64,000 nucleotides of DNA, taken from contig CAITNS010000010.1 in the NCBI GenBank assembly GCA_903893815.1, positions 1 through 64,000 of the forward strand. Direction: 5' to 3'. The stretch is from an uncultured Bacteroidota bacterium. Its GTDB lineage: Bacteria; Bacteroidota; Bacteroidia; B-17B0; Aurantibacillaceae. The position numbers and the translations under genes are program-made. Shown here in pieces: positions 3,230 through 34,765 of this stretch (position 1 is the stretch's first letter; the number at the start of each line of letters is the position of its first letter). Below the pieces are notes generated by a model. It ran no database searches. It saw only the letters and a program-made list of their open reading frames with translations, and was not told where the DNA came from.

Positions 3230-3373
3230 GCAAAAACTAGAACATTAAACTTAATTTTCTCAAAAAAGAGTTGGATAAATATACTTAATATTTTACATCA
3301 TTTTTTGACTGAAGTAAACTTTTATACACGACTACTTTTTTATATTTATCTTTACCAAATATATAAACACATT

Positions 3374-4123: not shown

Positions 4124-4138
4124 CCTTCTCATCCCCAA

Positions 4139-4188: not shown

Positions 4189-4204
4189 ATTGAGGGTGAG
4201 GGAA

Positions 4205-4768
4205 TTACTTTCCCTCAATCCAATTCACAATCTTATCGCAATTTGGACTTTTAAAGGAGTTAACATTACCAACTAAAAAGCCATTTTCATCAATCATATA
4301 TTTTTGAAAGTTCCATTTCACAGAACTACTTTCTACACCATTTTTATCTTTAGAAGTTAACCAATTATAAATATCACAAATGCTATTGCCTTTCACATCT
4401 ACTTTTTCCATCATTGGAAATGTTACTCCGTAGTTTCTGGTACAAAACGATTTGATGTCGGAACTGCTTCCTGGCTCTTGATTTCCAAACTGATTACATG
4501 GGAATCCAACAATCACAAAATTTTTATCCTTGTACTTTTCATATAAAGCTTCTAAGTCTTTGTACTGGGGAGTGAATCCGCACTTGGAGGCAGTATTCAC
4601 TATTAGAATCTTTTTGCCTTTAAATGAAGAAAGGCTAACTTCATCACCGTCAATGTTTTTTGCTCTAAACTGATGAATAGATGAAGTAGGAGTTCCTTTT
4701 CGGCCAATAAAGGCGTACAAAATTACCGCTAATGAAATGAGCAATATGAGAACGACTAGTTTATTCAT
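4205..4768 (-). CDS. glutathione peroxidase-family thiol peroxidase, membrane anchored
   Basis: A 187-residue peroxidase reducing hydroperoxides, probably with thioredoxin-type donors rather than glutathione. Residues 1-22 form a hydrophobic N-terminal segment without a clear cleavage site, suggesting a membrane anchor facing the periplasm. The catalytic tetrad is visible: peroxidatic Cys63 (NTASKCGFTPQY), Gln93 (FPCNQFG), Trp152 and Asn153 (VKWNFQKYMID). Cys109 in FCTRNYGV matches the resolving cysteine of the thioredoxin-dependent class. The gene is divergent from the CHU_C protein gene at 4855 and convergent with the dehydrogenase. Confidence 0.9.
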   Translation of the reverse strand: MNKLVVLILLISLAVILYAFIGRKGTPTSSIHQFRAKNIDGDEVSLSSFKGKKILIVNTASKCGFTPQYKDLEALYEKYKDKNFVIVGFPCNQFGNQEPGSSSDIKSFCTRNYGVTFPMMEKVDVKGNSICDIYNWLTSKDKNGVESSSVKWNFQKYMIDENGFLVGNVNSFKSPNCDKIVNWIEGK

Positions 4769-4793
4769 TTAGCAGGGTTTAAAGATGTAGATA

Positions 4794-4828
4794 TTTGATT
4801 ACTAATTAATTAATTATTATTATGTTTG
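4794..4828 (+). promoter_or_regulatory. putative Bacteroidota-type promoter for the 4855 gene
   Basis: A perfect TAnnTTTG -7 box (TATGTTTG, 4821-4828) is preceded by TTTG at 4794-4797, 23 bases away, slightly longer than the usual spacing. The start codon lies 26 bases after the -7 box. This is a consensus match only. Confidence 0.5.
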
Positions 4829-4854
4829 AATCTTGAACCTAAAACAAAAATCAT

Positions 4855-18000: not shown

Positions 18001-21000
18001 GGAACAGTAAGTTGTACTGGTTCTTGTGATGGAACCTTATCAGTGGTTGCAACAGGAGGTACTGCAGGTTATTTTTATAGCTGGTCACCCACTGCTCCGG
18101 TTCAAGCTGGTGCAACTGCAAATGGATTATGTGCTGGTAATTACATAGTAAGTGTTACGGATGCATTAGGTTGTATTGCTTCTACGGTAGCTGCAGTTGC
18201 GCAACCAACTGTTTTAACTGCCTCTATAGGAAATGTTCAACCTAGTTGTAATGTGTGTATTGGTTCAGCTACTGCAAATGGCATTGGTGGCACTCCGCCA
18301 TATACTTATGCTTGGGCACCTGGAGGACAAGTAGGCCCAACTCCTAATAATTTATGTGCAGGTGTTCAAACATTAACTGTTACTGACAGCAAAAACTGTA
18401 CAACTACACAAACTGTTCAAATTAATCAAACGGTTATTACTTTAATTACAACTAATGGAGGTACATTATCTTGTAACGGAGCATGTACAGGTCTGGCAAC
18501 AGCTAATCCTGTTGGAGGAGTAGCACCTTATTCTTATACTTGGACACCTTCTCCAGTTGCACCTACACAAACAACGCAAACTGCTAGTGGCTTATGTTTT
18601 GGCACACATACGGTTACAGTTTCTGACGCTCTAGGCTGTTCAAGTTCAAATACAGTTACCTTTATTAATCCTCCGGCTATTACATTAACGGTTAATCAAA
18701 CTAACGTAAATTGCAATGGCGCATGTAATGGTATCGCAAGTGCTAATGCAATTGGAGGGATTGGAGTTATCAGTTATTTATGGCAACCAGGTGGTCAAAC
18801 TACTTCAACAATAAATGGATTATGTGCTGGTGCGTATACAGTAACTGTTACTGATGGAAATAGTTGTTCTCAAACCCAAGTCGTTACCATTATCGAAAAT
18901 AGTTTATTAACAGCAATGTTTACGCCTAACAGTCCTTCAACTTGTACTTCTTCGGATGGCTCTATTACGGCTATTATTGGTGGAGGACTTCCTACTTATA
19001 CGCTTAATTGGTTGCCAATGAACTCATCTGCAAACCCATTAACTAATCTTGGTGCTGGATCCTACACTTTAAATATTATAGATGCAGCAGGTTGTACTCA
19101 AACTATTTCAACAACATTAAGTAATCCTACAGGGCCAACAGTTACTGCCGTTTCAAACTCTATCACTTGCTTTGGTGCATGCACTGGCTCAGCAACGCTT
19201 ACAATTTCAGGAACGGGACCGTTTAATGTGAATGGCAGTTTAATTGTAGGTAATACAACCACACTTTCTGGCTTATGTGCTGGTATTACTGCTCCTATTA
19301 TCACTGATGCAAATAACTGTGTTACTAATCAAACGGTTAACATAGCAGAGCCAACTCAACTTGCAGCAAATGGTGTCGTTACGCATGATCCTTGTAATGC
19401 ATCATGTACTGGGTCTGTTAATTTAACGCCCTCAGGTGGAACATTGCCTTATTCATATGTTTGGTCACCAGCGGGTGTAGGACAAGGTCCTACTAATTTA
19501 TGTGCAGGTAATTATACAGTTAATATTACAGATGGAAATAGTTGTGTGACAACAAACACCTATTTAGTTACTGAACCGCCGGCATTGACATTAAGCTTTA
19601 ATAAAAAAGATGTATTGTGTAACGGGCAGTGTACTGGTGGAGTTAGAGCTGTTCTTGTTGGCGGATCAAGCCCTTATACTTATACTTGGATACCTTCGCC
19701 ACCTTTTGCAGGGTCTAATATCGACACATTAGTTAATATCTGTTCAGGCATTTATACTGTTAGTGCAAGTGATGTAAATGGATGTATAATTACAGGAACT
19801 ATAGATATTGGACAACCAATCGCACTTACATCTACTATTACTTCTATTAATCAAAAATGTTTTGGACAATGTAACGGTTCTGCTACTATTACAGCTGTTG
19901 GTGGCGTTGCTCCTTATTCGTATAATTATAATACAACACCAATTACACCGACACAAACTATCGGTGGTTTATGTATTGGAACTTATACGGGCGGCGTATC
20001 TGATGCAAATGGTTGCGTAAGTTCAAATAGTTTTGTGATTTCACAACCTTTACCTATAGTTGTTACTACAACAATAAGTCATCCAACTTGTAATGCAGTT
20101 TGTAATGGAAGTGTTGCAACCACTGTAACGGGAGGAAATTCAAATTATAACTATAACTGGATTCCGGTTGGCGGACCAGTTTCAAGTCCAACAGGGCTAT
20201 GTGCAGGAAGTTATACGGTTATTGTGACAGATGATAGTTTGTGCACAGGACAAGCCTTGGTAACATTAATGGACCCTGCTATTTTATTAGCAAATACATC
20301 ATTTACTAATCCTAGTTGTAATGCAAGTTGTAACGGAGTAGTTACTGCAAATCCAATTGGAGGAATAGGACCTTTTAATTATTCATGGGCTACTCCGTTT
20401 GTTAATGCTCAAACAGTACCTAATTTATGTGCAGGAATTTATACACTCACTTTAAATGATGCAAACGGTTGTCAAGCAATACAAACTGTAACTTTAACAG
20501 ATCCCCCAGCAATTACTATTAATTCATCATTAGCACCAGCAACATGTAGTGTTTCTAATGGTTCTATTAATGCTACTGCCTCTAACGGAGTAGCGCCTTA
20601 CACTTATAATTGGCTTGATCCTTTAATTATTGTTTCAGGACAAGCTACTAATACTATGGTGACAAATATCCCTGCGGGTACATACACTGTCTTAGTAACT
20701 GATAATGTGGGTTGTTCAACAACCAGTGTTATTGCTTTAAGTAATGCAGATGGACCAACCGGAGCAACAATTACTTCAACTAATGTAACTTGTAATTCAC
20801 AATGTAATGGTGCTGCTGATGTTTCTAATGCTCTTGGCGGAACAGCGCCATACACTTTGAGTTGGATTAACCCGGCTTCTGCCTCTTCATCTGTTTCAGG
20901 TTTATGTGAAGGAACCTATACGGCAGAAATTGCAGATGCTAATAACTGTTTATTCTTTCAATCAGTAGTCATCACAGAGCCACAAACGATTGATGATAAT

Positions 21001-24000
21001 GAAATTATTACTCCTGCCGCTTGTTTAGGAAATTGTAATGGTTCTATTGCTTTAAATCCTTCTGGAGGAAATGCCGGTGCATACACGTATTCATGGTCGC
21101 CAGCATCAGCTACAGGAACAGTTTCAAATCTTTGTCCAGGTGCTTATACAGCTACTATTACTGACGTTCAAGGTTGTAAATTGGTAGCAACTTATATTCT
21201 TCCTAGTTTAACAACAATTACTAGTAGTACTTTTGCAACTAACAATACCTGTTTTGGAAGTTGTAATGGAAGTATATTAGCAACTAATATAGCAGGTGGA
21301 TTACCACCATATTCTTTTTCTTGGTCTGATCCTGCCGGACAATCAACAGTAATAGCTAGCAATTTATGTAATGGAAATTATTCGGTAACGATTACAGATG
21401 CAAACGGATGTTTTAATGTATTACCTTCTGTTATCAGTTCTCCTTCAGCAGTAACATTTACACCAACGGTTACTCAACCAAATTGTGGTTTATGTGATGG
21501 CTCGGCTTTTGTTAATCCGATTGGAGGAACAGCGGGTTATACATTTGTTTGGACTAATGGTCAAGTAATTAATACTGCTTCAAATTTATGTGCAGGTGTT
21601 TATGGTATACAAATAACAGATGCTAACGCTTGTGTCACTAGTTCAAATGTTATTATTAATAGTTCTTCCACTTTTACTGGCGAAACCATTACACAACAAA
21701 ATGTGTCATGTAGCGGTATATGCGATGGCACAGTAACAGTAACTGCTATTGGCGGAACAGCGCCAATTACATATCATTGGGTTCATAATGGATCTACCTC
21801 TCAAACATTAAATGGACTTTGTGCTGGAACCTATCTCTGCAATATGACAGATGCAAATGGTTGTACAAAAACAGCTAGTGTGGTAATTGGATCAACTACT
21901 AATTTTACGATTACTCCACAAATTTCTCAATCCTCATGTTCAGCTAATACAGGGTCTATTAATGTGAATGTAGTTGGCGGTAATGGCGGCCCTTATAATT
22001 ATGTTTGGATACCAGCAGCCGCTAATACTCCATCTTTAACAAATTTAGCTCCTGGTAATTATACATTAACCGTGTCTGATGGAAACTGTTCTCAAACACA
22101 GGTGTATTCTATTAATTCCGTTAACGGTCCAATAGTTACAGCTACGCAAAATGATGTGAGTTGTTCGGGACTTTGCGATGGAAGTATATCATTAGTAATA
22201 AACGGAGGCACGCCAGCTTATACTACTGCTTGGTCAAACGGTGCATCAATACCAAACATAAATGGACTTTGTGTTGGTGCATACTCTTATACAGTAACGG
22301 ATGGTGCGGGATGTAAAGCAGTACAAAGTTTCTCTTTAGCAACTGGAACTCCAATTGTATTTAGTGTACCTGATATTAATAATCCATTATGTAATAATAA
22401 TTGTAATGGAGTTGTGACTGCTATACCAAGTGGAGGAGCTTTGCCTTATACGTATAGTTGGGTTGTATCAACGTCTACTACTTCAATTGCAAATTCTCTT
22501 TGTGCTGGAAATTATTCAGTTATAGTAACAGATGCTAATGGGTGTTCATCTCAAGAAACGTATACGTTAACTGGCCCATCTACAATTAGTGTTACAGCTG
22601 TTGTGACGGACGCAAATTGTAATGGAGCAGCAACTGGTTCTATTAATTTAAGCGTTGTAGGTGGCGTTCCAGGACTGGGCTATACTTACAGTTGGACTCC
22701 AACAAATGCTGTTACTGAGGATATAAGTAATTTAACTAGTGGAACTTACAGTGTTATAATTACAGATGCAAATGGATGTAACGTTGATTCTAGTTTTGTA
22801 GTTGCTGAGCCAACAGCAGTTGTAGATAATTTTACCATTACATCTGCTGCGTGTTTTGGAAATTGTGATGGTACAATCACATTAGCTCCAACTGGCGGAA
22901 CTGGCCCATATTCTTATTCATGGACGCCGTCTGTTTCAAATACATTAACCGCTATAAATTTATGTCCTGGACCACAAACATCTACAATTACAGATGTGCA
23001 AGGCTGTGCCTTTGTATTTAATTATAACTTACCTAGTTTAACTACTATAACAACTTCCACATTGGCAGTTAATAATTTATGTTTTAATGATTGTAATGGA
23101 GTGTTAACTGCAACGACTATTACAGGTGGTGTCGCACCTTATACTATTCAATGGAACGATCCATTAGGACAAATAGGAAATACCGCTAGTGGATTATGCA
23201 ATGGAAGTTATTCGGCAACAATTACAGATGCTAATGGGTGCTTTAACAGAATTCCAGCAGACATAAGTTCAACTTCTCAAGTAACATTTACTCCTGCAAT
23301 TACTCAACCAAGCTGCGATCAATGTGATGGTTCGGCTATTGTAAATCCAATTGGTGGAACAGCGCCTTATAATTTTTTATGGAGTAATAATCAAATAGTA
23401 AATACAGCAACAAATTTATGTTCTGGTGTTTATGCTGTTCAAATTACGGATGGTAATGGTTGTGTAAACACAACGAATGTGGTTATTAATAGTTCAAGTG
23501 GAATTACTGGAGAAGCAGTTATCTCAACTAATGTAGCTTGTGACGCTAGCGCTTGCGATGGTTCAGCTAATGTAACTGCTGTGGGTGGTGTAGCTCCAAT
23601 TTCATATAATTGGGTGCATGATAATTCAACATCACAAACTGTTAATGGTTTATGTGCTGGAACGTATTTCTGTAATATGACAGATGCTAATGGTTGTTCG
23701 AGAACAGCAAGTGTAGTTATTGGAGCTGTAACTACATTAACTATTTCATCTCAAGTAACTCAATCTTCTTGTTCTTCGTCTACTGGGTCAGTTACGGTTA
23801 ATGTAAGTGGCGGTACTGGCGGTCCATATACTTACACTTGGCTTCCAGCAGGAAGTACGCCAACAGTAAGTAATTTAGCTCCTGGAAGCTATACGTTAAC
23901 CGTTAGTGATGGCAATTGTTCTAAAACTCAAATCTTCACTATTCAGTCTATCAATTCCCCAGTAATTACATCCACTAAAAAAGATATTTCTTGCAGCGGT

Positions 24001-25398
24001 GTATGTGATGGAAATATTGCGATAACTATTGTTGGTGGAACACCTGGATACACGACCTTATGGTCTAATGGAGCTTCAACCCCGAGCATAAGCGCATTAT
24101 GTGCGGGAGCTTATTCGGTTGAAGTAACTGATGCAGCAGGATGTAAAGCCGTTCGTAATTTCTCATTAACAACAGTAAGTCCAATAGCATTTAGTGTACC
24201 TGATTTAGATGGCCCTCAATGTCATGATGCGTGTGATGGCACCTTAACTGCCATTCCTATTGGAGGAACTATGCCATATTTATTTACATGGACACCAAAC
24301 AATGTAAACACAGCAACAATTAATAGTTTATGTACAGGCAATTATTCAATTACTGTTTCTGATGCTAATGGTTGTAGTCTATCTAATAATTATTCATTAA
24401 TCAATCCACCTGCATTAACATTAACTGCTACATCTATTGATGCAAGTTGTAATACGGCTTTAGATGGAGCTATGACTACAACTGTTACAGGAGGCATTTC
24501 TCCATTTACATATAGTTGGACTCCTGGTGCAGTTATAACATCAAGTTTAACTAATGTGTTAGCGGGAACATATACTTTAATTGTAACTGATAATTTTGGG
24601 TGTGTAATTGATACTGCTTTAACCATTAATTCAACATTATCGGTAAATGCTTTAGCAGGAAATGATACATTATTCTGTCAAAACGGAACTCTTTTATTAG
24701 ATGGGTCTAACTCAAATAGCACTTTTGGAACTAACACCTACGAATGGTTTGTTGTGCCAGCGGTTGCAGCCTTTTCAAATTCAATTTCAACTACTGTTTC
24801 ACCGTCTGTTGGAACCTCTACTTATGTTCTAGTTGCAACTAATGGCGTTTGTATTGATAGTGATACGATTGTAGTTAATTCAAACCCGCTTCCTAATGTA
24901 GATGCTGGACCAACACTAAGCATTCCATTATTTTCTTCAGCAACAATTGGAGGAAATCCAACTAGCTCAACAGCTACTACATTTAGCTGGTCTCCAGTAA
25001 TAGGATTAGATAATCTATCAGGAACAAATCCAGTATCTGGTACAACGGTTACAACTATTTATACGGTATCAGTTATTGATGTGAACGGTTGCTTTAATTC
25101 TGATACAGTAACAGTTTACGTTTACCCTGAAATTAAAATTCCAAATGGATTCTCTCCAAATGGAGATGGTAAAAATGATGTATGGCAAATTGATTTTATT
25201 GATCAGTTCCCAGATTGTGAAGTGGAAGTGTATAATCGTTGGGGTGAGCAATTGTTCTACTCTAAAGGATATGCCATACCATTTAACGGGCAATACAAAG
25301 GAAAAAATTTACCAGTGGGAACGTATTATTATGTTGTGAAGTTGAATCATCCTAACTACCCAAAACCATATACAAGCCCATTAACCATATTTAGATAA
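15097..25398 (+). CDS. giant SprB-like adhesin, T9SS substrate with CHU_C domain
   Basis: 3433 residues. Order: signal peptide (1-20, GCLNAQ); the WVGGSGYWNDPVHWS motif and a beta-helix-like region rich in Asn/Ser (about 25-245); about 38 tandem SprB-type repeats of 70-80 residues (about 255-3184); two or three Ig-like modules; and a CHU_C domain (about 3345-3433, IPNGFSPNGDGKNDVW, YNRWGEQLFYS). A typical repeat reads x-C-N-x-x-C-N-G, GG(T/I)xPYTYSW, LCAGxYTVTVTDANGC, so it has four conserved cysteines. SprB in Flavobacterium johnsoniae is a mobile surface adhesin driven along the cell by the gliding motor; this protein is about half its length. It is followed after three bases by an SprF-family gene. 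Repeats 22-29 and 30-37 are duplicates of each other as a block. Confidence 0.9.
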   Translation: MLRKLLLFIVLVVTGCLNAQTMHWVGGSGYWNDPVHWSYMSGGASANVIPSSNANVIFDNASSVSNFTIHALHSFNFKSITSENTNFKIDVIGSPNVDLTITGAVNLNEYFYFKLNGKINLNPQSATKYQFSHNKFNSDIFLNSQSDVELGVLHSEKKLIISGIFKLKNSSILVDDLILTNSQIDLSNNLIQASNGFSINNSQITNLSTVKSKIICQKNNLSSGTLQSLTNISNISVTPLSPQACAVPNPTVTFPTCQGVCNGIALFDLSGCSNPPFIIQWINGACPAALPPAEGAYVGATYSVNTLCGCSSQYLVIFENTLGEQTAVPVPMVDPPATILNFSTTQPTCNGLCNGQIRASVLTGAVPFSINWNPPAVTHPNVITRDTLKNACAGSYTVTATNVNGCVNTFTTTLIQPTILSANGTSSSVTCNAACNGSALATPIGGTAPYTYSWTSASSSPSSATTQTIGNLCPGVVTMTVTDSKTCTATFSTTITQPPAITLTVTKTDLNCGNICNGAATVTATGGVGTFTYSWSPSGGSAAIATGLCAGDYTCTVTNNGNCIKTITVSILSPPTLTAAPTQTNILCNSVCNGAINLNTSGGTPNYSYVWSPNISNTITASALCDGVYSYTITDALGCKFSNSVTITEPPAATLTIASTSITCNSACDGTAIGNMSGGTPLYTFSWTPSGLTTPSIGGLCPNTYTLRVTDANGCLTTRTVSITQPTAISLVTTSTSPTCNGVCNGSITATPGGGTGPYTYTLQSSGAPSTSGPSANSSFTSLCAGSYTLTVRDTKGCVQTRTINLTQPNPITLALPFTPINCFNACNSTISTVVGGGTGPYTFTWSPSGTGNSQVNQCAGVHSATVTDSKGCQASATITITSLPDLTVSIVPTNPNCNSQCTGIATTTVTGGTPNYTINFSNGASGNIINNLCQGTYTATVIDFFGCTKTQTVAITTPPALSLTPTNGTVSCTGSCDGTLSVVATGGTAGYFYSWSPTAPVQAGATANGLCAGNYIVSVTDALGCIASTVAAVAQPTVLTASIGNVQPSCNVCIGSATANGIGGTPPYTYAWAPGGQVGPTPNNLCAGVQTLTVTDSKNCTTTQTVQINQTVITLITTNGGTLSCNGACTGLATANPVGGVAPYSYTWTPSPVAPTQTTQTASGLCFGTHTVTVSDALGCSSSNTVTFINPPAITLTVNQTNVNCNGACNGIASANAIGGIGVISYLWQPGGQTTSTINGLCAGAYTVTVTDGNSCSQTQVVTIIENSLLTAMFTPNSPSTCTSSDGSITAIIGGGLPTYTLNWLPMNSSANPLTNLGAGSYTLNIIDAAGCTQTISTTLSNPTGPTVTAVSNSITCFGACTGSATLTISGTGPFNVNGSLIVGNTTTLSGLCAGITAPIITDANNCVTNQTVNIAEPTQLAANGVVTHDPCNASCTGSVNLTPSGGTLPYSYVWSPAGVGQGPTNLCAGNYTVNITDGNSCVTTNTYLVTEPPALTLSFNKKDVLCNGQCTGGVRAVLVGGSSPYTYTWIPSPPFAGSNIDTLVNICSGIYTVSASDVNGCIITGTIDIGQPIALTSTITSINQKCFGQCNGSATITAVGGVAPYSYNYNTTPITPTQTIGGLCIGTYTGGVSDANGCVSSNSFVISQPLPIVVTTTISHPTCNAVCNGSVATTVTGGNSNYNYNWIPVGGPVSSPTGLCAGSYTVIVTDDSLCTGQALVTLMDPAILLANTSFTNPSCNASCNGVVTANPIGGIGPFNYSWATPFVNAQTVPNLCAGIYTLTLNDANGCQAIQTVTLTDPPAITINSSLAPATCSVSNGSINATASNGVAPYTYNWLDPLIIVSGQATNTMVTNIPAGTYTVLVTDNVGCSTTSVIALSNADGPTGATITSTNVTCNSQCNGAADVSNALGGTAPYTLSWINPASASSSVSGLCEGTYTAEIADANNCLFFQSVVITEPQTIDDNEIITPAACLGNCNGSIALNPSGGNAGAYTYSWSPASATGTVSNLCPGAYTATITDVQGCKLVATYILPSLTTITSSTFATNNTCFGSCNGSILATNIAGGLPPYSFSWSDPAGQSTVIASNLCNGNYSVTITDANGCFNVLPSVISSPSAVTFTPTVTQPNCGLCDGSAFVNPIGGTAGYTFVWTNGQVINTASNLCAGVYGIQITDANACVTSSNVIINSSSTFTGETITQQNVSCSGICDGTVTVTAIGGTAPITYHWVHNGSTSQTLNGLCAGTYLCNMTDANGCTKTASVVIGSTTNFTITPQISQSSCSANTGSINVNVVGGNGGPYNYVWIPAAANTPSLTNLAPGNYTLTVSDGNCSQTQVYSINSVNGPIVTATQNDVSCSGLCDGSISLVINGGTPAYTTAWSNGASIPNINGLCVGAYSYTVTDGAGCKAVQSFSLATGTPIVFSVPDINNPLCNNNCNGVVTAIPSGGALPYTYSWVVSTSTTSIANSLCAGNYSVIVTDANGCSSQETYTLTGPSTISVTAVVTDANCNGAATGSINLSVVGGVPGLGYTYSWTPTNAVTEDISNLTSGTYSVIITDANGCNVDSSFVVAEPTAVVDNFTITSAACFGNCDGTITLAPTGGTGPYSYSWTPSVSNTLTAINLCPGPQTSTITDVQGCAFVFNYNLPSLTTITTSTLAVNNLCFNDCNGVLTATTITGGVAPYTIQWNDPLGQIGNTASGLCNGSYSATITDANGCFNRIPADISSTSQVTFTPAITQPSCDQCDGSAIVNPIGGTAPYNFLWSNNQIVNTATNLCSGVYAVQITDGNGCVNTTNVVINSSSGITGEAVISTNVACDASACDGSANVTAVGGVAPISYNWVHDNSTSQTVNGLCAGTYFCNMTDANGCSRTASVVIGAVTTLTISSQVTQSSCSSSTGSVTVNVSGGTGGPYTYTWLPAGSTPTVSNLAPGSYTLTVSDGNCSKTQIFTIQSINSPVITSTKKDISCSGVCDGNIAITIVGGTPGYTTLWSNGASTPSISALCAGAYSVEVTDAAGCKAVRNFSLTTVSPIAFSVPDLDGPQCHDACDGTLTAIPIGGTMPYLFTWTPNNVNTATINSLCTGNYSITVSDANGCSLSNNYSLINPPALTLTATSIDASCNTALDGAMTTTVTGGISPFTYSWTPGAVITSSLTNVLAGTYTLIVTDNFGCVIDTALTINSTLSVNALAGNDTLFCQNGTLLLDGSNSNSTFGTNTYEWFVVPAVAAFSNSISTTVSPSVGTSTYVLVATNGVCIDSDTIVVNSNPLPNVDAGPTLSIPLFSSATIGGNPTSSTATTFSWSPVIGLDNLSGTNPVSGTTVTTIYTVSVIDVNGCFNSDTVTVYVYPEIKIPNGFSPNGDGKNDVWQIDFIDQFPDCEVEVYNRWGEQLFYSKGYAIPFNGQYKGKNLPVGTYYYVVKLNHPNYPKPYTSPLTIFR
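20785..24430 (+). repeat. tandem duplication of an eight-repeat block inside the SprB-like gene
   Basis: Protein repeats 23, 24, 25, 26, 27, 28 and 29 match repeats 31 to 37 one for one (for example ILPSLTTITSSTFATN against NLPSLTTITTSTLAVN, and VNPIGGTAGYTFVWTNGQVI against VNPIGGTAPYNFLWSNNQIV). Repeat 22 and repeat 30 share the segment leading into the block. The period is about 1830 bases (for example 21016 to 22846). Copies have diverged at the DNA level, so the duplication is not recent. Boundaries are approximate. Confidence 0.8.
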
Positions 25399-25401
25399 AA
25401 G

Positions 25402-26325
25402 ATGAAGAAATTTTTATATATAACGGTTATCGCGTTGCTTGTAACTAATTTACAGGCTCAGCAACTGCAACAGTATACGCAGTATATGTTAAATGATTTG
25501 GCAATTAATCCTGCGGTAGCTGGGAAAGATAATTTTGCAGACATGCGTTCTAATAATCGCTACCAATGGGTAGGTATGACAGATGCGCCTAGAACTTATA
25601 TGTTGACTTTACATAGTCCTTTAAAAAATCGACACATGGGTTTAGGAACACATATCTACACTGATATTGTAGGTCCAACCAGACGAGTAGGTATTAGTTT
25701 AGCCTATGCTTACCATATTAAGATTGCAGAAAAAACGAGGTTATCATTAGGGCTGAATGCAGGAATACAACAATGGGGAATTGATGGACATAAATTGTAT
25801 TTGCACGATGCAGGTGATGATAATCTATTAACGCAATATCAAACTAGAATTGTTCCTGATTTTGGAGCAGGTATATATGTTCATAATGAAAAATGGTATC
25901 TGGGATTTAGTGCACCTCAATTATATCAAAGTCCTATTAAATTGTATCCAGATGGAGATCATAAAGGAACATTGGTGACTCATTTTTTATTAAATGGAGC
26001 TTATAAATTCGATATCAATGATGATTTTAAAGTAGAACCTTCTTTCTTAGCTAAATATGCAAATCCAGCACCGATTAAGGTGGATATTGGAGTTCGTGTT
26101 ATTTATCAAGAGCAAGTTTGGTTGGGAGTTGGCTACAGACATAATGATGCGCTTACAGCTTTAGTTGGATTTATGTATAAAAATTATTTAATGATAGGTT
26201 ACTCTTATGATTTTACAACAACTAATCTTAAAAATTACTCTTCGGGCACACATGAGTTAATGTTAGGTCTTCGCTTTTCAAAACAACAATCCAAGCATTG
26301 GAAAGATGATGTTGAAGTAAAATAA
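25402..26325 (+). CDS. PorP/SprF-family T9SS outer membrane protein
   Basis: 307 residues: signal peptide (1-19, LQAQ), the family signature QYTQYMLNDLAINPAVAGK immediately after it, and a beta-barrel-like remainder ending in LMLGLRFSK. PorP/SprF proteins bind T9SS cargo with CHU_C-type C-termini and help it to the surface; SprF is needed for SprB localisation in Flavobacterium. The gene begins three bases after the giant adhesin's stop codon, the same sprB-sprF order, so it is probably the dedicated partner of that protein. The last strand is followed by a short charged tail. Confidence 0.9.
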   Translation: MKKFLYITVIALLVTNLQAQQLQQYTQYMLNDLAINPAVAGKDNFADMRSNNRYQWVGMTDAPRTYMLTLHSPLKNRHMGLGTHIYTDIVGPTRRVGISLAYAYHIKIAEKTRLSLGLNAGIQQWGIDGHKLYLHDAGDDNLLTQYQTRIVPDFGAGIYVHNEKWYLGFSAPQLYQSPIKLYPDGDHKGTLVTHFLLNGAYKFDINDDFKVEPSFLAKYANPAPIKVDIGVRVIYQEQVWLGVGYRHNDALTALVGFMYKNYLMIGYSYDFTTTNLKNYSSGTHELMLGLRFSKQQSKHWKDDVEVK

Positions 26326-26372: not shown

Positions 26373-27032
26373 ATGAAATTTCATAAAGAAGGTTACCCTA
26401 CATTATTAGTTACCATATTGTTTAGTACTATCATTATTAGCATTGCCAAATTAGTATTTCCTGAGTTCGCTATTGCACATTGGTTCGCTTATGTGTTATC
26501 AGGTTTTTTATTAATTGTGGTGATTCAATTTTTTCGCCACCCAAGTCGTGTGCATACGATTAATGATTATGCGATTATTGCTCCAGCAGATGGTAAAGTA
26601 GTAGTGATAGAAGAAACAGAAGAAGGCGAATACTTTAAAGATAAACGTATTCAGGTATCAATTTTTATGTCGCCTATTAATGTGCATGTCAATCGTTACC
26701 CAATTGCAGGAGATGTGACTTATGCAAAATACCATGCGGGTAAATTTATGGTAGCTTCTTTACCAAAAGCAAGTACTGAGAATGAACGCACGAGCGTTGT
26801 CGTGAAACATCCAAACAATGGCAAATCTGTTTTATTCAGACAAGTTGCTGGGGCTTTAGCGCGCCGTATTGTGATGTATAGCAAAGAAGGCGATAAAGCG
26901 ACACAGTGCGGAGAAATGGGATTTATTAAATTTGGTTCTCGTGTTGATTTGTATTTGCCTTTAGACGCTAAACTTAAAGTGAAAATTGGTGATGTGGTAA
27001 CAGGCTCACAAACGGTTATCGCAGAGTTTTAA
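26373..27032 (+). CDS. psd: phosphatidylserine decarboxylase proenzyme
   Basis: 219 residues of the short PSD class. Two hydrophobic N-terminal helices (about 10-28 and 36-54) anchor it in the inner membrane. Then come FFRHPSR, APADGKVVVIEE, the IFMSPINVHVNRYP motif with conserved His, a YHAGKF segment, and the self-cleavage site FGSRVDL, where Ser189 would become the pyruvoyl group. It converts phosphatidylserine to phosphatidylethanolamine. No pssA is adjacent. The 3' end overlaps the convergent gene at 27029 by four bases. Confidence 0.9.
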   Translation: MKFHKEGYPTLLVTILFSTIIISIAKLVFPEFAIAHWFAYVLSGFLLIVVIQFFRHPSRVHTINDYAIIAPADGKVVVIEETEEGEYFKDKRIQVSIFMSPINVHVNRYPIAGDVTYAKYHAGKFMVASLPKASTENERTSVVVKHPNNGKSVLFRQVAGALARRIVMYSKEGDKATQCGEMGFIKFGSRVDLYLPLDAKLKVKIGDVVTGSQTVIAEF

Positions 27033-27829
27033 TAAACATACTGTTTAACTTCTGTAGGAATCACAAAAGCCTTATTTTTATTGTAAAAATCTGAAAAGGT
27101 CGTATTCATTTTTTTAACATAGTCTGCATATTTCTTTACAGAGTAACCTTGTTGGTAATAAGGAAATGGTTTGTTTAGTTGAATAAAAAATCGATTTTTA
27201 ATTATCATAAATACTTCTTTTGCAGGAGTGCCTTTTTCTGATGCTTTACTAGCTTGCGCTTCTGACACTAATCCTAATGATGAATCATAAATAGTACCTT
27301 GTTCAGCTACTAAATAAAATGGAGCGTCGCAAACGATACTTGAATTAACAACTAAATTAGAGTCTACAAATATTCCTGAAAGACTTTTATGTTTTACAGA
27401 GTCAGAGCAATCTGAATTAAAAAAATAAACGGGGCAAAATTTAAATTCATTGCTGTAGGCTCTAATGATAGCTTTATTATTAACACGAGTTTCTCTTTCT
27501 ACCTGGGTTGCCAAATCAATACTTCCTGCTGCTTTTAAACGGTTAATGGTATTGGCATTTGTTTTTAAACGCACTAATAAAGCGCCTCCATTTTTTAAGG
27601 AAATGATTTGTGCTTTAGCAACACTTTCGCGGTATTTACTAAATGCAATAAAAGAGGAGTCTCCTTTAAAGTTATTTACTTTAGGAGGTTTGGTGTCATC
27701 TTCTTGTGCAAGAAAGTTGAAAGACAAAAAGAAAATAATAAATGATGTCAATAAAAGACTTCGACTCCGCTCAGTCTGACAATCTTCGTTTTGAGATAAG
27801 TATTTAAAATTATTTAACTTCAGAACCAT
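27029..27829 (-). CDS. exported protein of unknown function
   Basis: 266 residues if started at the ATG at 27829, which overlaps the metG 3' end by 20 bases. The hydrophobic core [18 protein letters not shown] ends in a plausible cleavage site before EDDTKPP. A TTG at 27751 is an alternative start giving a compact signal peptide (MTSFIIFF...). The upstream 26 codons are largely encoded by the dispersed repeat at 27758-27780 (peptide QTERSRS), which favours the TTG or a recently extended N-terminus. The mature protein has several Cys ([20 protein letters not shown]) and no motif I recognise. It is likely co-transcribed with metG. Confidence 0.6.
27758..27780 (-). repeat. dispersed intergenic repeat (ACTGAGCnnAGTCGAAGT type), copy 3
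   Basis: On the minus strand it reads GTCAGACTGAGCGGAGTCGA followed by AGT. It lies just inside or upstream of the exported-protein gene ending at 27029, in frame with it, and encodes the peptide CQTERSRS when the ATG at 27829 is used. Confidence 0.8.
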
Positions 27830-29861
27830 TATTAAAATCAGGTTTGGTTGCTGTCATAAAACTTAATTCCCCAGCACTATTAGAGGCCATTAAAATCATT
27901 CCTTGACTTTCGATACCTTTAATTTTACGTGGCGCAAGGTTTGCCAACATACACACTTTCTGTCCAATAATATCTTCAGGTTTATACCATTCGGCAATAC
28001 CACTTACCACAGTGCGCAGGTCAAGGCCAGTATCGAGCTTTAGTTTTAATAATTTATCTGTTTTTGGAACGCGCTCTGCTTCTAAAATAGTAGCAGTACG
28101 AATATCCATTTTATTAAAATCATCAAAACTGGTTTCAGGTTTAGCAGGAGCAATAGCAGTAACGGCATTTGCAGAAGCATTCGCACTTTTACTAGCATTT
28201 AATTTATCAATCTGTGCTTGTATTTCTGTATCTTCAATTTTAGCAAATAATAATCCTTCTTTATTAATAACATGCCCTGCTGCCATGTTGCTAGTTTGTT
28301 TAGCAGCATGCCATTTTAAAATAGGCATATTTAACATCGTAAATAATTTAGTTGATGTAAAAGGCAAGAACGGTTCACAAACTACCGCTAAGTTGCAAGT
28401 AATTTGTAAAGCGATATTCATAATCGTTTTTACACGTTGCTCATCCATTTTAATCAATTTCCATGGCTCGGTTTCAGCTAGGTATTTATTTCCTAAACGA
28501 GCCAAGTTCATCATCTCTGCTAAGGCTTCTCTAAATTTAAAGTTTTCAATAGAAGCAGATATTTTATTTGGAAATGCTGCCAATTGCTCTAAAATCAATA
28601 AATCTTCTTTAGTATAAGTGTCAGCAGAAGGTACAGAACCATTGTAGTATTTGTGAGTCAACACTAAAGTACGGTTTACAAAATTCCCTAAAATTGCAAC
28701 TAATTCAGAATTATTTTTGGTTTGAAAATCTGCCCAGGTAAAATCGTTATCTTTAGTTTCTGGAGCGTTAGAACATAAAGTATAACGCAGCACATCTTGT
28801 TGATTTTTAAAATCAATTAAATACTCGTGTAACCACACCGCCCAATTACGTGAGGTGGAAATTTTATCACCTTCTAAATTTAAAAATTCATTGGCTGGAA
28901 CATTATCTGCTAAAATAAAATCGCCGTGCTCCATTAACATGGCAGGGAAAATAATACAGTGAAATACAATATTATCTTTTCCAATAAAATGAATTAAACG
29001 GGTTTCTTTATCTTTCCAATATAATTCCCAATCGTTTGGTCTTAATTCTTTAGTAGCAGAGATATATCCGATTGGTGCATCAAACCAAACATACAACACT
29101 TTTCCTTCAGCACCTTTAACTGGTACTGGTACACCCCAATCTAAATCACGAGTCATGGCACGAGGCTGTAATCCATCACCACTATCTAACCAACTTTTAC
29201 ATTGTCCATAAACATTGGTTTTCCAATCTTTATGTTGGTCTAAGTATGCTTGTATTTTTGGCTGTAATTTATCTAAAGGCAAAAACCAATTTTTCGTTTC
29301 TTTTAAAACAGGTTTTGCCCCACTTAATGTTGATTTTGGATCAATTAACTCCGTTGCGCTTAAGGTGCTTCCGCATTTCTCGCATTGGTCGCCATAAGCA
29401 TTTGGATTAGCACATTTAGGACAAGTACCCGTAATATAACGGTCTGCTAAAAACTGCTTGGCTTCTTCGTCATAATACTGTTCGGTGACTTCTTCTGTAA
29501 AAACACCTTTATCGTAAAGTGTTTTAAAGAAATCAGAAGCTGTTTCGTGATGAATTTTATTGGAGGTTCGTGAGTACACATCAAATGAAATTCCAAACTC
29601 TTTAAAAGAGTCACCCATCATTTTATGGTATTTATCTACCACATCCTGCGGATTAACTCCTTCTTTTTTGGCTTTAATAGTAATAGGCACGCCATGCTCG
29701 TCGCTACCACAAATAAACATAACGTCCTCGCCTTTACTTCTTTTGTATCTCACAAAAATATCGGAAGGCAAATAGCAGCCCGCTAGATGACCAATATGAA
29801 CTGGACCATTTGCATAAGGTAGGGCGGAAGTAACAAGTGTACGTTTATAAGTAGTTGACAT
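27810..29861 (-). CDS. metG: methionyl-tRNA synthetase
   Basis: 683 residues from the ATG at 29861; the in-frame ATG at 29924 adds an unlikely hydrophobic extension. Class I signature: [11 protein letters not shown] (HIGH at 22-25) and the KMSKS-equivalent [13 protein letters not shown] (about 330-340). A zinc knuckle with four Cys sits at about 147-165 ([19 protein letters not shown]). The C-terminal tRNA-binding OB domain (about 580-683, [32 protein letters not shown]) gives a dimeric long-form enzyme, joined by an Ala/Ser-rich linker. It is divergent from the HNH-type gene across 77 bases. Confidence 0.95.
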
Positions 29862-29938
29862 AGTGTTTATTAAATAACTAAAATACTGTAAAATTGTGTA
29901 AAGATAACATTTAACTTTATTCATTAAAAATCAAATCT

Positions 29939-30793
29939 ATGGCAGCAAACGACAAAGAAATTTGGAAACCGGTGACTCACATTAAAGGAAAAACTAGTAA
30001 AAAATACGCTGTGTCGTCAAAAGGCCGCTTAGCGTCTTACGACAAGAATATTGAAGACAGATACGTGTTAAAACAACATTTGAACGGTGGCTTTCCTATG
30101 GCAACTATTCATGTGGAAGGTAAGTCTAGAGCCTTATTTTCACATCAAGCTATTGGCGCTTCTTTTTTAAAGAAACATAGCCCGAAATGCAAATTTGTGA
30201 TTCATTTAGATCATAATAAGGCTAATAACGATATTTCTAACTTAAAATGGGCTACAAAAGATGAACAAGTAGAACATAGTAAAAAAAGTCCTTATGTGTT
30301 ACAAGCAGCAGCTCGTAAAGTATATACTGGCGCTACTGCTCGTAAGTTAGATGAGAAAAAAGTAATTGCACTTAAAAAAGAAATTTGGAATCCAAAACGT
30401 AAAGCAAGCTTAAAACAAATTGCTGCTAAATATGGTATTGCCGAAATGAATTTATACCGTATTAAAAATGGTGAATTATGGTTTCATGTGCATATTGAAG
30501 GCGAACCAATTTTCCCTAAATACAAAGCACAATTAAAAAATATTGAGTTCCATGAAAAGGTGGCTGCTAAAGTGAAAAAAGCTGCTCCGAAAAAAGTAGT
30601 TAAGAAAGCAGCACCTAAAAAGGCGGTTAAAAAAGCGGCTCCTAAAAAAGCAGTTAAGAAGGCTACTCCAAAGAAGTCAAGCCAAAGCGTGACTAAAAAA
30701 CCTGTAGTAGTTGTGAAAGCTAAAAAAGTAAAAGCCAAGAAAGAAAAGAAGGGTAAAAAAGACAAAAAAGGTAAAAAGAAAAATAAAAAATAA
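29939..30793 (+). CDS. NUMOD4/HNH/HTH homing-endonuclease-like protein with histone H1-like tail
   Basis: 284 residues. Order: a NUMOD4-like segment (about 7-45, EIWKPVTHIKGK with YAVSSKGRLASYD); an HNH_3-type core (about 84-130) with VIHLDHNKANNDISNLKWAT matching the H-x-D-x2-K-x-NN-x3-NL-x-W-x-T signature, although the Asn usually before the His is Ile; a predicted helix-turn-helix (about 134-183, KLDEKKVIALKKEI then LKQIAAKYGIAEMNLYRIKNG ending LWFHV), like the DNA-binding tails of intron endonucleases; and a Lys/Ala/Pro tail (about 205-284) with four KKA(A/T)PKK units. The stop overlaps the next start by one base. I infer a domesticated DNA-binding or nucleoid protein; nuclease activity is uncertain. 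Confidence 0.7.
   Translation: MAANDKEIWKPVTHIKGKTSKKYAVSSKGRLASYDKNIEDRYVLKQHLNGGFPMATIHVEGKSRALFSHQAIGASFLKKHSPKCKFVIHLDHNKANNDISNLKWATKDEQVEHSKKSPYVLQAAARKVYTGATARKLDEKKVIALKKEIWNPKRKASLKQIAAKYGIAEMNLYRIKNGELWFHVHIEGEPIFPKYKAQLKNIEFHEKVAAKVKKAAPKKVVKKAAPKKAVKKAAPKKAVKKATPKKSSQSVTKKPVVVVKAKKVKAKKEKKGKKDKKGKKKNKK
30575..30676 (+). repeat. 27-base tandem coding repeat (H1-like tail)
   Basis: Four copies of a nine-codon unit encoding KKAAPKKAV (last copy KKATPKK, truncated). Third positions vary between copies, so the repeat is maintained at protein level and not as recent slippage. Confidence 0.8.
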
Positions 30794-31683
30794 TGGTACT
30801 ACCTTCTTATTTAAATAAAGGAGATACAGTGGCAATCATTGCTACAGCTCGTAAAGTAAGTAAAGAAGAAATACAACCGGCCGTAGCTTTTTTCGAAAGT
30901 TACGGCCTTTCTGTTGTGTTGGGCAAAAATTTATTTGAGTCGAGCAATCAATATGCTGGCACAGATACACAACGAACAGAAGATTTGCAATGGGCTTTAA
31001 ATGATAAAACTATTAAAGCCATTATCATTGCACGTGGCGGTTATGGTTCTGTGAGAACAATAGAACAAATTGATTTTACGGAATTTAAAAAACATCCAAA
31101 ATGGATGGTGGGTTATAGTGATGTAACGGTATTACACAATGCTATTCATAAAATTGGTGTAGCAACCTTACACGCTACCATGCCTTTAAATTTCACTAAG
31201 AATGAAGAAGCGACTAAAAGTATGGTAGACGCTTTATTTGGTAAATTAATTCAAGTTGAAACCGAAGAAAATTATTCGAATATATCTGGAACAGCCAAAG
31301 GACAATTAGTAGGAGGAAATTTATCTTTGATTTATTCCTTATCAGGAACGCCTTTTGATATTGATACAAGAGATAAAATTTTATTCATTGAAGATTTGGA
31401 TGAATATTTATATCACATTGACAGAATGATGATGCAATTGAAATTATCTGGAAAGCTAAAAGGGTTAAAAGGTTTAATTGTTGGTGGCATGACAGACATG
31501 AAAGATAATGCTATTCCTTTTGGAAAATTTCCAGAAGATATTATTTTAGATGCCGTAAAAGAATATAACTATCCTGTTTGCTTTGATTTCCCCGCTGGAC
31601 ATATTGATAGAAATTTAGCCATGTATTTTGGACGAGAAGTAGAATTGACTGTATCGGATAATGCCACTTTAAAATTTCTTTAG
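30793..31683 (+). CDS. ldcA: LD-carboxypeptidase (murein tetrapeptide carboxypeptidase, S66)
   Basis: 296 residues; removes the terminal D-Ala from murein tetrapeptides during peptidoglycan recycling. The Ser-Glu-His set is visible: Ser109 in WMVGYSDVT, the Glu in LFIEDLDEYLYHIDRM (about 200), and the His in DFPAGHIDRN (about 270). The IIIARGGYGSVR motif (about 77-88) is also typical. No signal peptide is seen, so it is cytoplasmic. The ATG overlaps the stop codon of the HNH/H1-tail gene (TAATG), implying translational coupling. Confidence 0.9.
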   Translation: MVLPSYLNKGDTVAIIATARKVSKEEIQPAVAFFESYGLSVVLGKNLFESSNQYAGTDTQRTEDLQWALNDKTIKAIIIARGGYGSVRTIEQIDFTEFKKHPKWMVGYSDVTVLHNAIHKIGVATLHATMPLNFTKNEEATKSMVDALFGKLIQVETEENYSNISGTAKGQLVGGNLSLIYSLSGTPFDIDTRDKILFIEDLDEYLYHIDRMMMQLKLSGKLKGLKGLIVGGMTDMKDNAIPFGKFPEDIILDAVKEYNYPVCFDFPAGHIDRNLAMYFGREVELTVSDNATLKFL

Positions 31684-31687
31684 TTTT

Positions 31688-31827
31688 TTAGCCACATAGA
31701 AACATAGATTATTTGGTCTTATAAGTCTTGGATAGGAAGCTTCGCTTCTCAAACAGATACTATGTGAAAAAACATGTTTTCTATCTATTACTTTTCTACA
31801 CTTTACAACTATGTGTCTATGTGGTAA
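31688..31827. repeat. inverted repeat pair of the CACATAGnnACATAG type
   Basis: TTAGCCACATAGAAACATAG (31688-31707) is the near-complement of CTATGTGTCTATGTGGTAA (31809-31827), with about 100 bases between. The arms resemble the perfect palindrome at 41921-41963. The left arm lies directly after the ldcA stop codon. The interior carries no gene. Confidence 0.7.
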
Positions 31828-31858
31828 TTTTATTAATTCTACAATAATTAATTTTCCG

Positions 31859-31866
31859 TAAATTTG
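31859..31866 (+). promoter_or_regulatory. putative -7 box for the alpha/beta hydrolase gene
   Basis: A perfect TAnnTTTG match (TAAATTTG), 39 bases before the ATG at 31906. No convincing TTG -33 element is seen at the normal spacing. Confidence 0.35.
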
Positions 31867-31905
31867 AATATCTATCATTTGTACTAGGGAAATAATTTTT
31901 ATAAT

Positions 31906-32709
31906 ATGATTTGCAAAACCACCGACAACCTAAATATTTACTTTGAGGTACAAGGTAATGAGAGTGCTAAGGAAACCATCGTTTTTTTAAATGGACTCTC
32001 TCAATCTACCATTTCTTGGATTTTAACGACGCCGCATTTTAAAAATGATCATAGAATAGTATTGATTGATTTTATTTTTCAAGGGCAAAGTGATAAAACT
32101 GGCGAATGGCGTAATTTTGATGTGCATGCTCGCGACGTTATTAGTGTATTAGATATTTTAAAGATTGATAAAGCTATTATCGCCGGTTTATCTTACGGAA
32201 GTTTAGTGGCTCAATATCTAGGAGTGCATTACGGCAATCGAATTTCTAAATTAATTTTAATGTCGACTTTTGCTGTTAAAACACCTTATTACGAAGCCAT
32301 TGAATTATCATGGTGGCGTGCTTTAGAAATGGGTGGTTATGGATTAATGTTAGACATTATGTTACCAAATGTTTTAAGTGAAGGTTATTTTAAAAATCCA
32401 TTATTTCCAATTGATTTAATGAAACAAACCCGTCAGGAAGCTAATGACGATAAGCAAGCTTTGTTTAAATTAATGCGCGCAACAAAAGAACGTCCGGACT
32501 ATCGACCTGAATTAAAAAAAATCTCTACACCAACTATTATTATTCAAGGCGAAAAAGATACTTTGTTTCCAGTTCATATGGCGCAGGAAGTAGCTGATTC
32601 AATTCCAAATAGCAAATTGGTAGTTATTCCTTTTGCAGGACATACGCTAAACTTAGAGGCAATTCCTCAAATGGTAAAAGCTATAAAGGAGTTTATTTTA
32701 GCTTCTTAA
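31906..32709 (+). CDS. alpha/beta hydrolase
   Basis: 267 residues of the classic alpha/beta fold: oxyanion-hole region IVFLNGLSQSTISW (about 25-38), nucleophile elbow GLSYGS with Ser96, an acid in IIIQGEKDTLFP and a catalytic His in FAGHTLNLEAIP. The sequence between elbow and acid contains a cap region with ELSWWRALEMGGYG. It could be an esterase, haloperoxidase-like or lipid-related hydrolase; the substrate is not readable. No signal peptide, so cytoplasmic. It is followed by a large palindromic element. Confidence 0.85.
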   Translation: MICKTTDNLNIYFEVQGNESAKETIVFLNGLSQSTISWILTTPHFKNDHRIVLIDFIFQGQSDKTGEWRNFDVHARDVISVLDILKIDKAIIAGLSYGSLVAQYLGVHYGNRISKLILMSTFAVKTPYYEAIELSWWRALEMGGYGLMLDIMLPNVLSEGYFKNPLFPIDLMKQTRQEANDDKQALFKLMRATKERPDYRPELKKISTPTIIIQGEKDTLFPVHMAQEVADSIPNSKLVVIPFAGHTLNLEAIPQMVKAIKEFILAS

Positions 32710-33020
32710 AAAGTAGGTTATTTTAATCTTTTTTATGGCGTGTCCCTCTGGGTCGGGCTGTCGCTTCAATCTTTTGCAGGAGGCAGGCAAAAGGATTTAC
32801 GCTTGCATCCCTCACGCAATATTGGCATTTAAACCTGCGTTAGGGATTGAACGAAAATCCTTTTACGCAACGGAGTGAAGTAAAAGATTGCAGTGAAAGC
32901 CCGGGCCAGAGGCAACGCCCCAACTGAAATAAATCTAAACCAGTATAATATTTCAATTAAATATTATATTACAAATAGCGAAAAAAATTCACTAATTATT
33001 TCTATTTTTGAAACACAAAT
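32710..33020. other. 311-base gene-free stretch holding a palindromic element
   Basis: This gap between the hydrolase and tyrS has no reading frame with coding character. Its central part (32737-32919) is a large, GC-richer, four-armed palindromic element listed separately. The last 100 bases are very AT rich and contain a TATTTTTG box (33003-33010) just upstream of tyrS. Confidence 0.8.
32737..32919. repeat. large palindromic element that can fold as a four-armed cross
   Basis: The outer arms GGCGTGTCCCTCTGGGTCGG (from 32737, continuing GCT) and AGCCCGGGCCAGAGGCAACG (ending CC at 32919) are complementary with a few mismatches. Inside are three further stems: CTTTTGC/GCAAAAG (about 32771-32793), AAAGGATT..GCATCCCT with AGGGATT..AAAATCCTTT (about 32789-32812 with 32842-32864), and CTTTTAC/GTAAAAG (about 32860-32886). 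I recognise similar elements in intergenic regions of other Bacteroidota, but know no assigned function. Confidence 0.7.
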
Positions 33021-34307
33021 ATGAAAACAAATTTTATAGAAGAATTAACATGGCGTGGCATCTTGCATGATGTGATGCCTGGTACAGAAGAATTACTAAA
33101 TAAAGAAGTTGTTACTGGATATATTGGATTTGATCCAACAGCAGATAGTTTACATGTTGGGAGTTTAGCTCAAATCATGACTTTATTACGTTTTCAATTA
33201 GCAGGACATAAGCCCTTAGCTTTGGTTGGCGGTGCCACTGGTATGGTGGGTGATCCAAGCGGAAAATCAGCAGAGCGTAATTTGTTAGATGCAGATACTT
33301 TAAATAAAAATGTGGAGGGAATTAAAAAACAATTAAGTCAGTTTTTAGATTTTAATTGTGGAGCAAATAGTGCGGAGTTAGTAAACAATTACGATTGGTT
33401 TAAAAATTATTCTTTCTTGGATTTCATTCGTGATGCTGGTAAACATATCACAGTAAATTACATGATGGCTAAGGATTCTGTAAAGAACCGCATCAATGGT
33501 GATTCTGGAATGTCCTTTACAGAATTTAGTTACCAGTTAATTCAAGGTTACGATTTTTATTATTTGTGGAAAGAACGCAATTGTAAAATTCAAATGGGCG
33601 GATCTGATCAGTGGGGTAATATTACAACGGGTACTGAGTTTATTCGTCGTAAGGCAAGCGGAGAAGCTTTTGCATTAACCACTCAATTAATTAAAAAATC
33701 AGACGGAACTAAATTCGGAAAATCTGAAGGAGGAAACATTTGGTTAGATAGAGAAAAAACATCGCCCTATAAATTTTACCAGTTTTGGTTAAACGTGAGT
33801 GATGATGATGCGAAAACGTATGTGAGAATTTTTACTTTATTAAGCAAATCAGAAATTGAAGAATTAGAAGCAAAACATGCTTCAGTGCCGCACGAACGTC
33901 ATTTACAAAAAGCTTTAGCTAAAGAAATTACAATTAGAGTTCATAGTGAAGCGGATTATTTGCAAGCGATTGAAACCGCTGAATTTTTATTCAAATCTAA
34001 AGCCGAAGATGTAGCTAATTTAAACCCAGATGCCTTTGAAAAAATGTTAGGTGGTATTGATACGTTTGAAGTAAACAAAACAGATGTTGCTAATGGAATC
34101 AATTTGGTTGATTTGTTAGTAGATAAAGCATCTGTATTTCCTAGTAAAACCGAAGCTCGTAAAATGTTTACAGGTAATGCTGTGAGTATAAGTAAAGCTA
34201 AAGTTACGGATGTAAATGTTACTATTAATTTAGAGGCTTTTAACGGGGGTAAATATTTACTAGTAAGTAAAGGAAAAAAAGAAAATTATTTAATTAAGTT
34301 AGTTTAA
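33021..34307 (+). CDS. tyrS: tyrosyl-tRNA synthetase
   Basis: 428 residues, class I. The HIGH-equivalent lies in [14 protein letters not shown] (about 33-46). The tyrosine-site region has the YDFYYLW and [12 protein letters not shown] motifs. The KMSKS-equivalent is [16 protein letters not shown]-terminal S4-like RNA-binding domain (about 355-428) contains [18 protein letters not shown]. It charges tRNA-Tyr. A TATTTTTG -7-like box ends 10 bases before the ATG, so the leader must be very short. Confidence 0.95.
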
Positions 34308-34313
34308 AATACT

Positions 34314-34348
34314 CTGCGCTCTTTGCGCAAAATCTCCGCGTTTTTGCG
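34314..34348 (+). repeat. short CTTTGCG/CGCAAA-rich intergenic repeat
   Basis: The gap between tyrS and the next gene consists of CTGCGCTCTTTGCGCAAAAT followed by CTCCGCGTTTTTGCGGTTAAA. It resembles a common bacterial intergenic repeat family (CTCTGCGTnTTTGCGG). Only one copy was noticed here. Function unknown. Confidence 0.45.
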
Positions 34349-34366
34349 GTTAAATTTAGTAGCACA

Positions 34367-34765
34367 ATGATAAAAGACATCGTAATTCCAGAAGTATTTG
34401 ACGTAGCAATTGCTATTGTTCAGGAGTTTGAAGGCTTGGATGAATACAATGCTTATATTTTTAATTTTAAAGAAGAGAGTATTAAAAATGTATTAATTAC
34501 TTCCACTGGTTATGGCGTCATTAATGATGTAAAGAAAAAAACAAGTACGCTCCGTCATTTTTTCGAAGAAATAGAAACCCTAGATTATAAATTAATTGAA
34601 CCAGTATCAAAAGAAGTATTTGGTTTAAGTAATGAATATTGGATAAGCTTTACTTTAAACGGACAATTATTAGATAAACAATTTATCTTTTTACCAGAAT
34701 CTATTATCGAATCTAATTTTCAAATGATTCCTTTTTTAGATAAAATGGGAGTTATTATTAAATAG
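34367..34765 (+). CDS. conserved hypothetical protein
   Basis: 132 residues, acidic, no signal peptide or membrane segment. The pattern is alternating strands and helices: YIFNFKEESIKNVLITSTGYG, then a helix DVKKKTSTLRHFFEEIETL, then WISFTLNGQLLDKQFIFLPESI. I do not recognise a characterised family. It is 59 bases downstream of tyrS in the same orientation and ends at a strong terminator, so it may share the tyrS transcript. Confidence 0.6.
   Translation: MIKDIVIPEVFDVAIAIVQEFEGLDEYNAYIFNFKEESIKNVLITSTGYGVINDVKKKTSTLRHFFEEIETLDYKLIEPVSKEVFGLSNEYWISFTLNGQLLDKQFIFLPESIIESNFQMIPFLDKMGVIIK

Follow-up and report, generated by a model that had tools for sequence, protein, structure and literature searches.

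A probable non-cutting descendant of NUMOD4-HNH homing endonucleases in Bacteroidota, with WhiA-like features and a lineage-specific lysine-rich tail

Endonucleases of the I-HmuI type (PDB 1u3e; phage free-standing HNH genes, PHROG 59/959) are arranged in the module order NUMOD4-HNH-HTH, and the catalytic residues conserved among I-HmuI-like enzymes are D74, H75, and N96 (PMC12724721). WhiA (DUF199), a domesticated homing endonuclease of Gram-positive bacteria, is a degenerate LAGLIDADG protein that has lost its metal-binding and catalytic residues and binds DNA through a C-terminal HTH (PMC3781837). Bacterial histone H1-like proteins, among them AlgP and Hc2, carry a repetitive Lys/Ala/Pro-rich C-terminal tail, which in Hc2 is a Lys-rich repeat tail varying in size with repeat number (PMC2848022). 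A gene at positions 29939 to 30793 of the window, i.e., the whole 64,000-nucleotide stretch of Bacteroidota DNA analyzed here, resembles each of these systems in part. Its product has the module order of the I-HmuI-type enzymes; however, D/N74 and N96 are replaced, the gene is fixed, single-copy, and chromosomal, outside any intron or phage, and one clade of its family has an additional Lys-rich tail. A degenerate active site together with a conserved HTH is reminiscent of WhiA. In contrast to the LAGLIDADG fold of WhiA, the nuclease part is of the HNH beta-beta-alpha-metal type, and the protein is therefore not a WhiA-family member; moreover, the gene is found in Bacteroidota, is patchy and dispensable, and probably inherited its HTH from the ancestral enzyme. 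By analogy, the product would work like WhiA without belonging to the WhiA family. As compared to the H1-like proteins, the similar tail repeats were recently added to a folded DNA-binding core and are missing outside one clade.

The preferred reading, to which we assign a probability of roughly 0.6, is that the gene encodes a domesticated, WhiA-like, non-cutting DNA-binding protein derived from the HNH/NUMOD4 class, probably a regulator. Taken separately, domestication with loss of cutting is very probable, and a regulatory role is about an even proposition. The features of the locus are as follows.

27810–29924, minus strand: metG, the divergent upstream neighbor
29862–29938, no strand assigned: divergent metG/gene spacer, which holds TGTAAAATTGTGTAAAG
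29939–30793, plus strand: whole gene, encoding a pseudo-HNH NUMOD4-HNH-HTH protein with a Lys-rich tail, 284 aa
29957–30091, plus strand: NUMOD4 motif, residues 7–51 (Pfam PF07463, E 7.8e-9)
30140–30289, plus strand: HNH (beta-beta-alpha-Me) domain, residues 68–117 (HNH_3 core 82–110)
30350–30487, plus strand: C-terminal helix-turn-helix, residues 138–183, the most conserved part of the family
30554–30790, plus strand: predicted disordered Lys-rich tail, residues 206–284, with KKAAPKKAV repeats; limited to the metG/ldcA clade
30571–30676, plus strand: 27-nt tandem repeat in four copies, coding the KKAAPKKAV units
30793–31683, plus strand: ldcA (LD-carboxypeptidase, Peptidase_S66), overlapping the gene by 1 nt; downstream neighbor conserved in the clade

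The open reading frame starts with ATG and encodes 284 residues; an antisense frame at 30484–30765 was discarded as an artefact of the Lys-rich tail. Profile searches proposed in the earlier note placed both modules above the Pfam cut-offs (NUMOD4 at residues 7–51, 36.1 bits against 23.4; HNH_3 at residues 82–110, 29.7 bits against 24.8, E 5.1e-7), so the NUMOD/HNH similarity whose absence would have spoken against that note is present. The PHROG HNH endonuclease families 59 and 959 also matched (E 8.6e-25 and 4.9e-18, respectively), PADLOC applied the generic label homing endonuclease, and NCBIfam returned no family match. An AlphaFold model built with 60 sequences exhibited pLDDT values mostly above 90 over residues 11–170, dipping to 74–78 at 121–140, with HTH helices at 139–149, 158–165, and 169–176, and with values of ∼47–67 in the tail. 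Model residues 7–117 superposed by VIA-align onto I-HmuI 1–103 with Z 12.5 and rmsd 2.9 over 102 residues at 26% identity, the runner-up being I-PpoI (Z ∼3.7), and I-HmuI was likewise the top PDB sequence match (1u3e, E 0.008). The HTH part gave weak matches, Z ∼3, to sigma-region-4 and other HTH folds. The NUMOD4-HNH-HTH architecture first proposed from the letters alone is thus supported by profile matches, superposition, and the modeled helices.

In the PDB sequence-match alignment, D74, H75, and N96 of I-HmuI pair with I88, H89, and Q110 of the gene product, such that the metal-ligand positions D74 and N96 are occupied by I88 and Q110 while H89 and N101 are retained. Among 121 distinct relatives, position 88 was occupied by I in 91, L in 25, G in 2, and V, A, or S in one each, and never by D or N; position 110 was M in 58, Q in 22, H in 17, and N in 4, with other residues in the remainder. 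H89, equivalent to the general-base His75 of I-HmuI, was retained in 116 of the 121, and N101 (the central Asn87 of I-HmuI) and H113 in every one. Phage homologues, taken as a control, carried N,H,N,N at 88/89/101/110 in 10 of 10 cases, I-HmuI itself having D,H,N,N, and clear HNH_3 enzymes elsewhere in Bacteroidota (e.g., L162, L163, L165, L168, and L170) had D or N first and N last. Of the His/Asp/Asn residues singled out in the earlier note, the His and the central Asn are therefore conserved and the metal-ligand positions are lost. Since both ligand positions are replaced, loss of cleavage is likely, and the alignment and predicted structure together indicate that the gene product and its Bacteroidota family most likely no longer cut DNA. 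Two HNH relatives of 270–272 aa (L171 and L183) exhibited A,H,N,N, with the first ligand alone lost, and possibly represent intermediates on the path from active to inactive enzyme.

An unlikely alternative, which accounts for part of these data, is that the enzyme still nicks or homes by coordinating metal differently (through H89, H113, and Q/H110) and spreads slowly, or that it serves the host as a nuclease in repair or defense. H89, N101, and H113 are nearly or fully invariant, and the PADLOC and PHROG models name a homing endonuclease. Retention of H89 and N101 argues against an unused active site, yet both may have structural roles, and the His (17/121) or Gln (22/121) at position 110 might still bind metal. 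However, neither classic ligand position is preserved, and the replacements are often poor metal binders (I, L, V, Y, and M). An active enzyme would also fit the several different genomic loci within the family and the metG/ldcA sites that are empty in genus g2; against it, the locus types mostly form single clades that show no recurrent invasion, and viral copies of the subfamily are almost absent, as set out below.

One copy each was found in the source genome and 18 of 19 genus relatives (G001–G019), i.e., in 19 of 20 genus genomes, the gene not being found in G010. Elsewhere in the family, the gene occurs in genera g6 and g8, whereas no match was obtained in g2, g3, g4, g5, g7, g9, or g10, so its distribution among genera is patchy. 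One genome, G043, has two copies. A scan of the genome collection yielded at least 484 relatives in bacterial genomes, and the best 80 of these bore Bacteroidota names with the exception of one labeled Chlorobiota and one labeled “bacterium”; when the phylum was sampled evenly, 45 of 395 genomes matched, some of them through weak matches that are probably other HNH proteins. Relatives were encoded at two loci among 2.9 million viral contigs. Distant homologues in phages amounted to 443 records, with identities of ∼26–31% among the matches listed and alignment over up to residues 6–200 of the core.

A gene tree of 126 rows, whose long branches are joined with uncertainty, resolved four of five context groups as single clades: metG/ldcA (42 rows, support 100), argC-argD-X-proC-proB (27 rows, support 96), ligA (5 rows, support 100), and der (2 rows, support 99), the lpdA group being the exception. 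The ligA, der, and lpdA neighbors are presumed identities, named by eye from sequence. Context changed 8 times on the tree versus 69 in shuffles, and pairwise tree distances of the gene correlated with those of ldcA (Pearson 0.80) and metG (0.68) to an extent comparable to metG with ldcA (0.71). Given these context clades and the tracking of ldcA and metG distances, the gene is vertically inherited after few relocations, at fixed, lineage-specific chromosomal positions, although past mobility would give the same pattern of different loci in different lineages. Signs of mobility sought as recurrent invasion or as phage or intron carriage were not observed, there being one copy, one clade here, and two viral loci. 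The earlier note would have taken a patchy distribution with multiple mobile copies as the mark of a selfish element; copies are single within the genus, yet presence is patchy between genera. An Rfam scan of 27000–34500 detected neither an intron nor another RNA, consistent with the absence of an intron or phage context noted initially.

All copies in the metG/ldcA group are oriented divergently to metG and are followed by ldcA whenever the contig extends beyond them, and in the window the stop codon TAA (30791–30793) and the ldcA ATG share 1 nt. The tight linkage to ldcA, and the conserved single copy beside it, thus hold for this clade but not as a general context, because other lineages have it within an arg-pro operon or downstream of ligA or der. 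The same neighbors led to rejection of ldcA coupling as a general clue to a cell-wall function, and a common regulon is unreadable from context since neighbors differ between lineages. In Carboxylicivirga marina (L100), the Pfam-checked order is argG-argC-argD-X-proC-proB-proA; 27 loci of Marinilabiliaceae-type genomes (within L088–L131) place a member at the arg/pro junction of this operon, the full order being that of L100.

Three g2 genomes present empty sites: the gene is missing, and metG and ldcA lie adjacent and divergent at a distance of ∼100–150 nt. G010 retains an intact spacer as far as the position of the start codon, where ATAGGGC replaces ATGGC, and the rest of the gene was not found. 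Given these empty sites and this loss, the gene is dispensable. Between ldcA and metG, G010 (L253, G010:C14, ∼1570–7380) has ∼5.8 kb containing a PLD-like ORF and other ORFs. Across 11 genus members with proteins that share 62–81% identity with that of the window, the spacer at 29862–29938 is ∼90% identical; it is probably the metG promoter region. The true metG start is probably MSTTYK near 29861. A sigma-70 promoter scan gave scores no better than shuffles. Within the spacer, TGTAAAATTGTGTAAAG carries two TGTAAA copies 10 nt apart and occurs in almost every examined genus member that has the gene; G010 retains it with one change. The spacer may serve metG alone, as it is also retained in this gene-less genome. 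As a candidate operator of the protein, TGTAAAATTGTGTAAAG was dropped, since it persists in G010 and overlaps the likely metG promoter.

Strong purifying selection acts on the core, with dN/dS of 0.02–0.12 in computable pairs (NG86 counting; several pairs saturated). Mean column entropy was lowest in the HTH (1.15 bits), followed by HNH (1.57) and NUMOD4 (1.94), and K146, R154, A162, E169, R174, I175, G178, and W181 were invariant in 60 sequences. That the HTH stays invariant even though the neighbors differ between lineages may point to a shared DNA target. The proposal in the earlier note that a selfish nuclease had been domesticated is supported by loss of both ligands, single copy, fixed location, and purifying selection.

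The Lys-rich, H1-like tail was also described correctly at the outset: Lys makes up 48% of the last 60 residues as compared to 18% in the next-highest ORF, a rarity assessed within the 64-kb window, and KKAAPKKAV repeats are present. A stand-alone 58-aa H1-like ORF of KKAAPKKAV repeats is found in the same genome (L002, 1447–1623 of G000:C43). On the strength of the tail, the earlier note had allowed for a nucleoid protein, and a mainly nucleoid-associated or architectural H1-like protein in which the tail does the work is a rival reading. The Lys content, the separate 58-aa protein, whose DNA is 89% identical to that of the tail over 83 nt, and the basic character of family members throughout (pI ∼10) are all in keeping with such a role. 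However, the stretch following the HTH ranges from ∼25 to 174 residues within the metG/ldcA clade, mostly with 20–40% Lys, whereas the arg-operon and other relatives mostly stop 4–20 residues past the HTH (35 in L029; 19 sequences lacked the landmark motif and were unmeasured). The tail is also nearly unconstrained in the closest pair (L003/L004; dN/dS 0.57 versus 0.02 for the core), with values of 0.13 and 0.22 in two other pairs, and conservation resides in the HTH and the HNH fold. The tail is a late, fast-evolving addition in this clade, and its H1-like block is a recent decoration on an older basic tail rather than a family-defining part. As a lineage-specific, fast-evolving element absent from most relatives, the tail does not represent the ancestral function, and a primarily nucleoid role, for which it was the sole basis, is improbable.

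A degenerating homing-endonuclease remnant without host function, undergoing slow loss, would explain the missing catalytic ligands, the patchy presence in the family, and the loss in G010, but is the least probable account given the open reading frames of the genus copies, the low core dN/dS, and residues invariant across a phylum-wide family.

Under the preferred reading of a domesticated DNA-binding protein, the ancestor would have been an I-HmuI-type homing endonuclease encoded by a free-standing gene and built as NUMOD4-HNH-HTH. Both HNH metal-ligand positions would have been replaced in the Bacteroidota family (88 to I/L; 110 to M/Q/H and others), with retention of the fold, the general-base His, and the recognition modules, and the gene would then have passed vertically at its lineage-specific positions. 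The product would bind DNA sequence-specifically through the near-invariant C-terminal HTH, with help from NUMOD4 and from the inactivated HNH fold, and this binding would regulate transcription, as in WhiA. Acquisition of the disordered Lys-rich tail by the metG/ldcA clade would have followed, probably strengthening non-specific DNA contact. More tentatively, and at somewhat below even odds, the phylum-wide inactive HNH/NUMOD4 family may be a host regulator with one DNA target common to all lineages, constituting an independent second WhiA-like domestication onto which one lineage later grafted an H1-like tail.

Profile libraries name these proteins HNH endonucleases, yet the evidence indicates that the Bacteroidota family as a whole lacks the metal site while its fold and HTH are under strong selection. 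If the product is a regulator, it would represent a second case, beside WhiA, of a selfish nuclease becoming a DNA-binding protein of the host, and the possible part-way forms L171 and L183 (A,H,N,N) render the steps of domestication testable. Carriers with named strains include Marinilabilia, Carboxylicivirga, and Prolixibacter, in which the gene is part of the arginine-proline operon or a neighbor of der. No paper in the part of the literature covered pairs NUMOD4 with Bacteroidetes, and the papers mentioning NUMOD4 appear to be mainly phage genomics; within the same coverage, no account of the Bacteroidota family came to light among work on inactive or domesticated HNH proteins, and earlier mention in reviews is possible.

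Elsewhere in the window, 15097–26325 encodes a 3433-aa repeat protein, presumably secreted, with the C terminus PNGFSPNGDGKNDVW, which by its sequence we take to be of the gliding-motility type; the next gene is presumably PorP/SprF-like.
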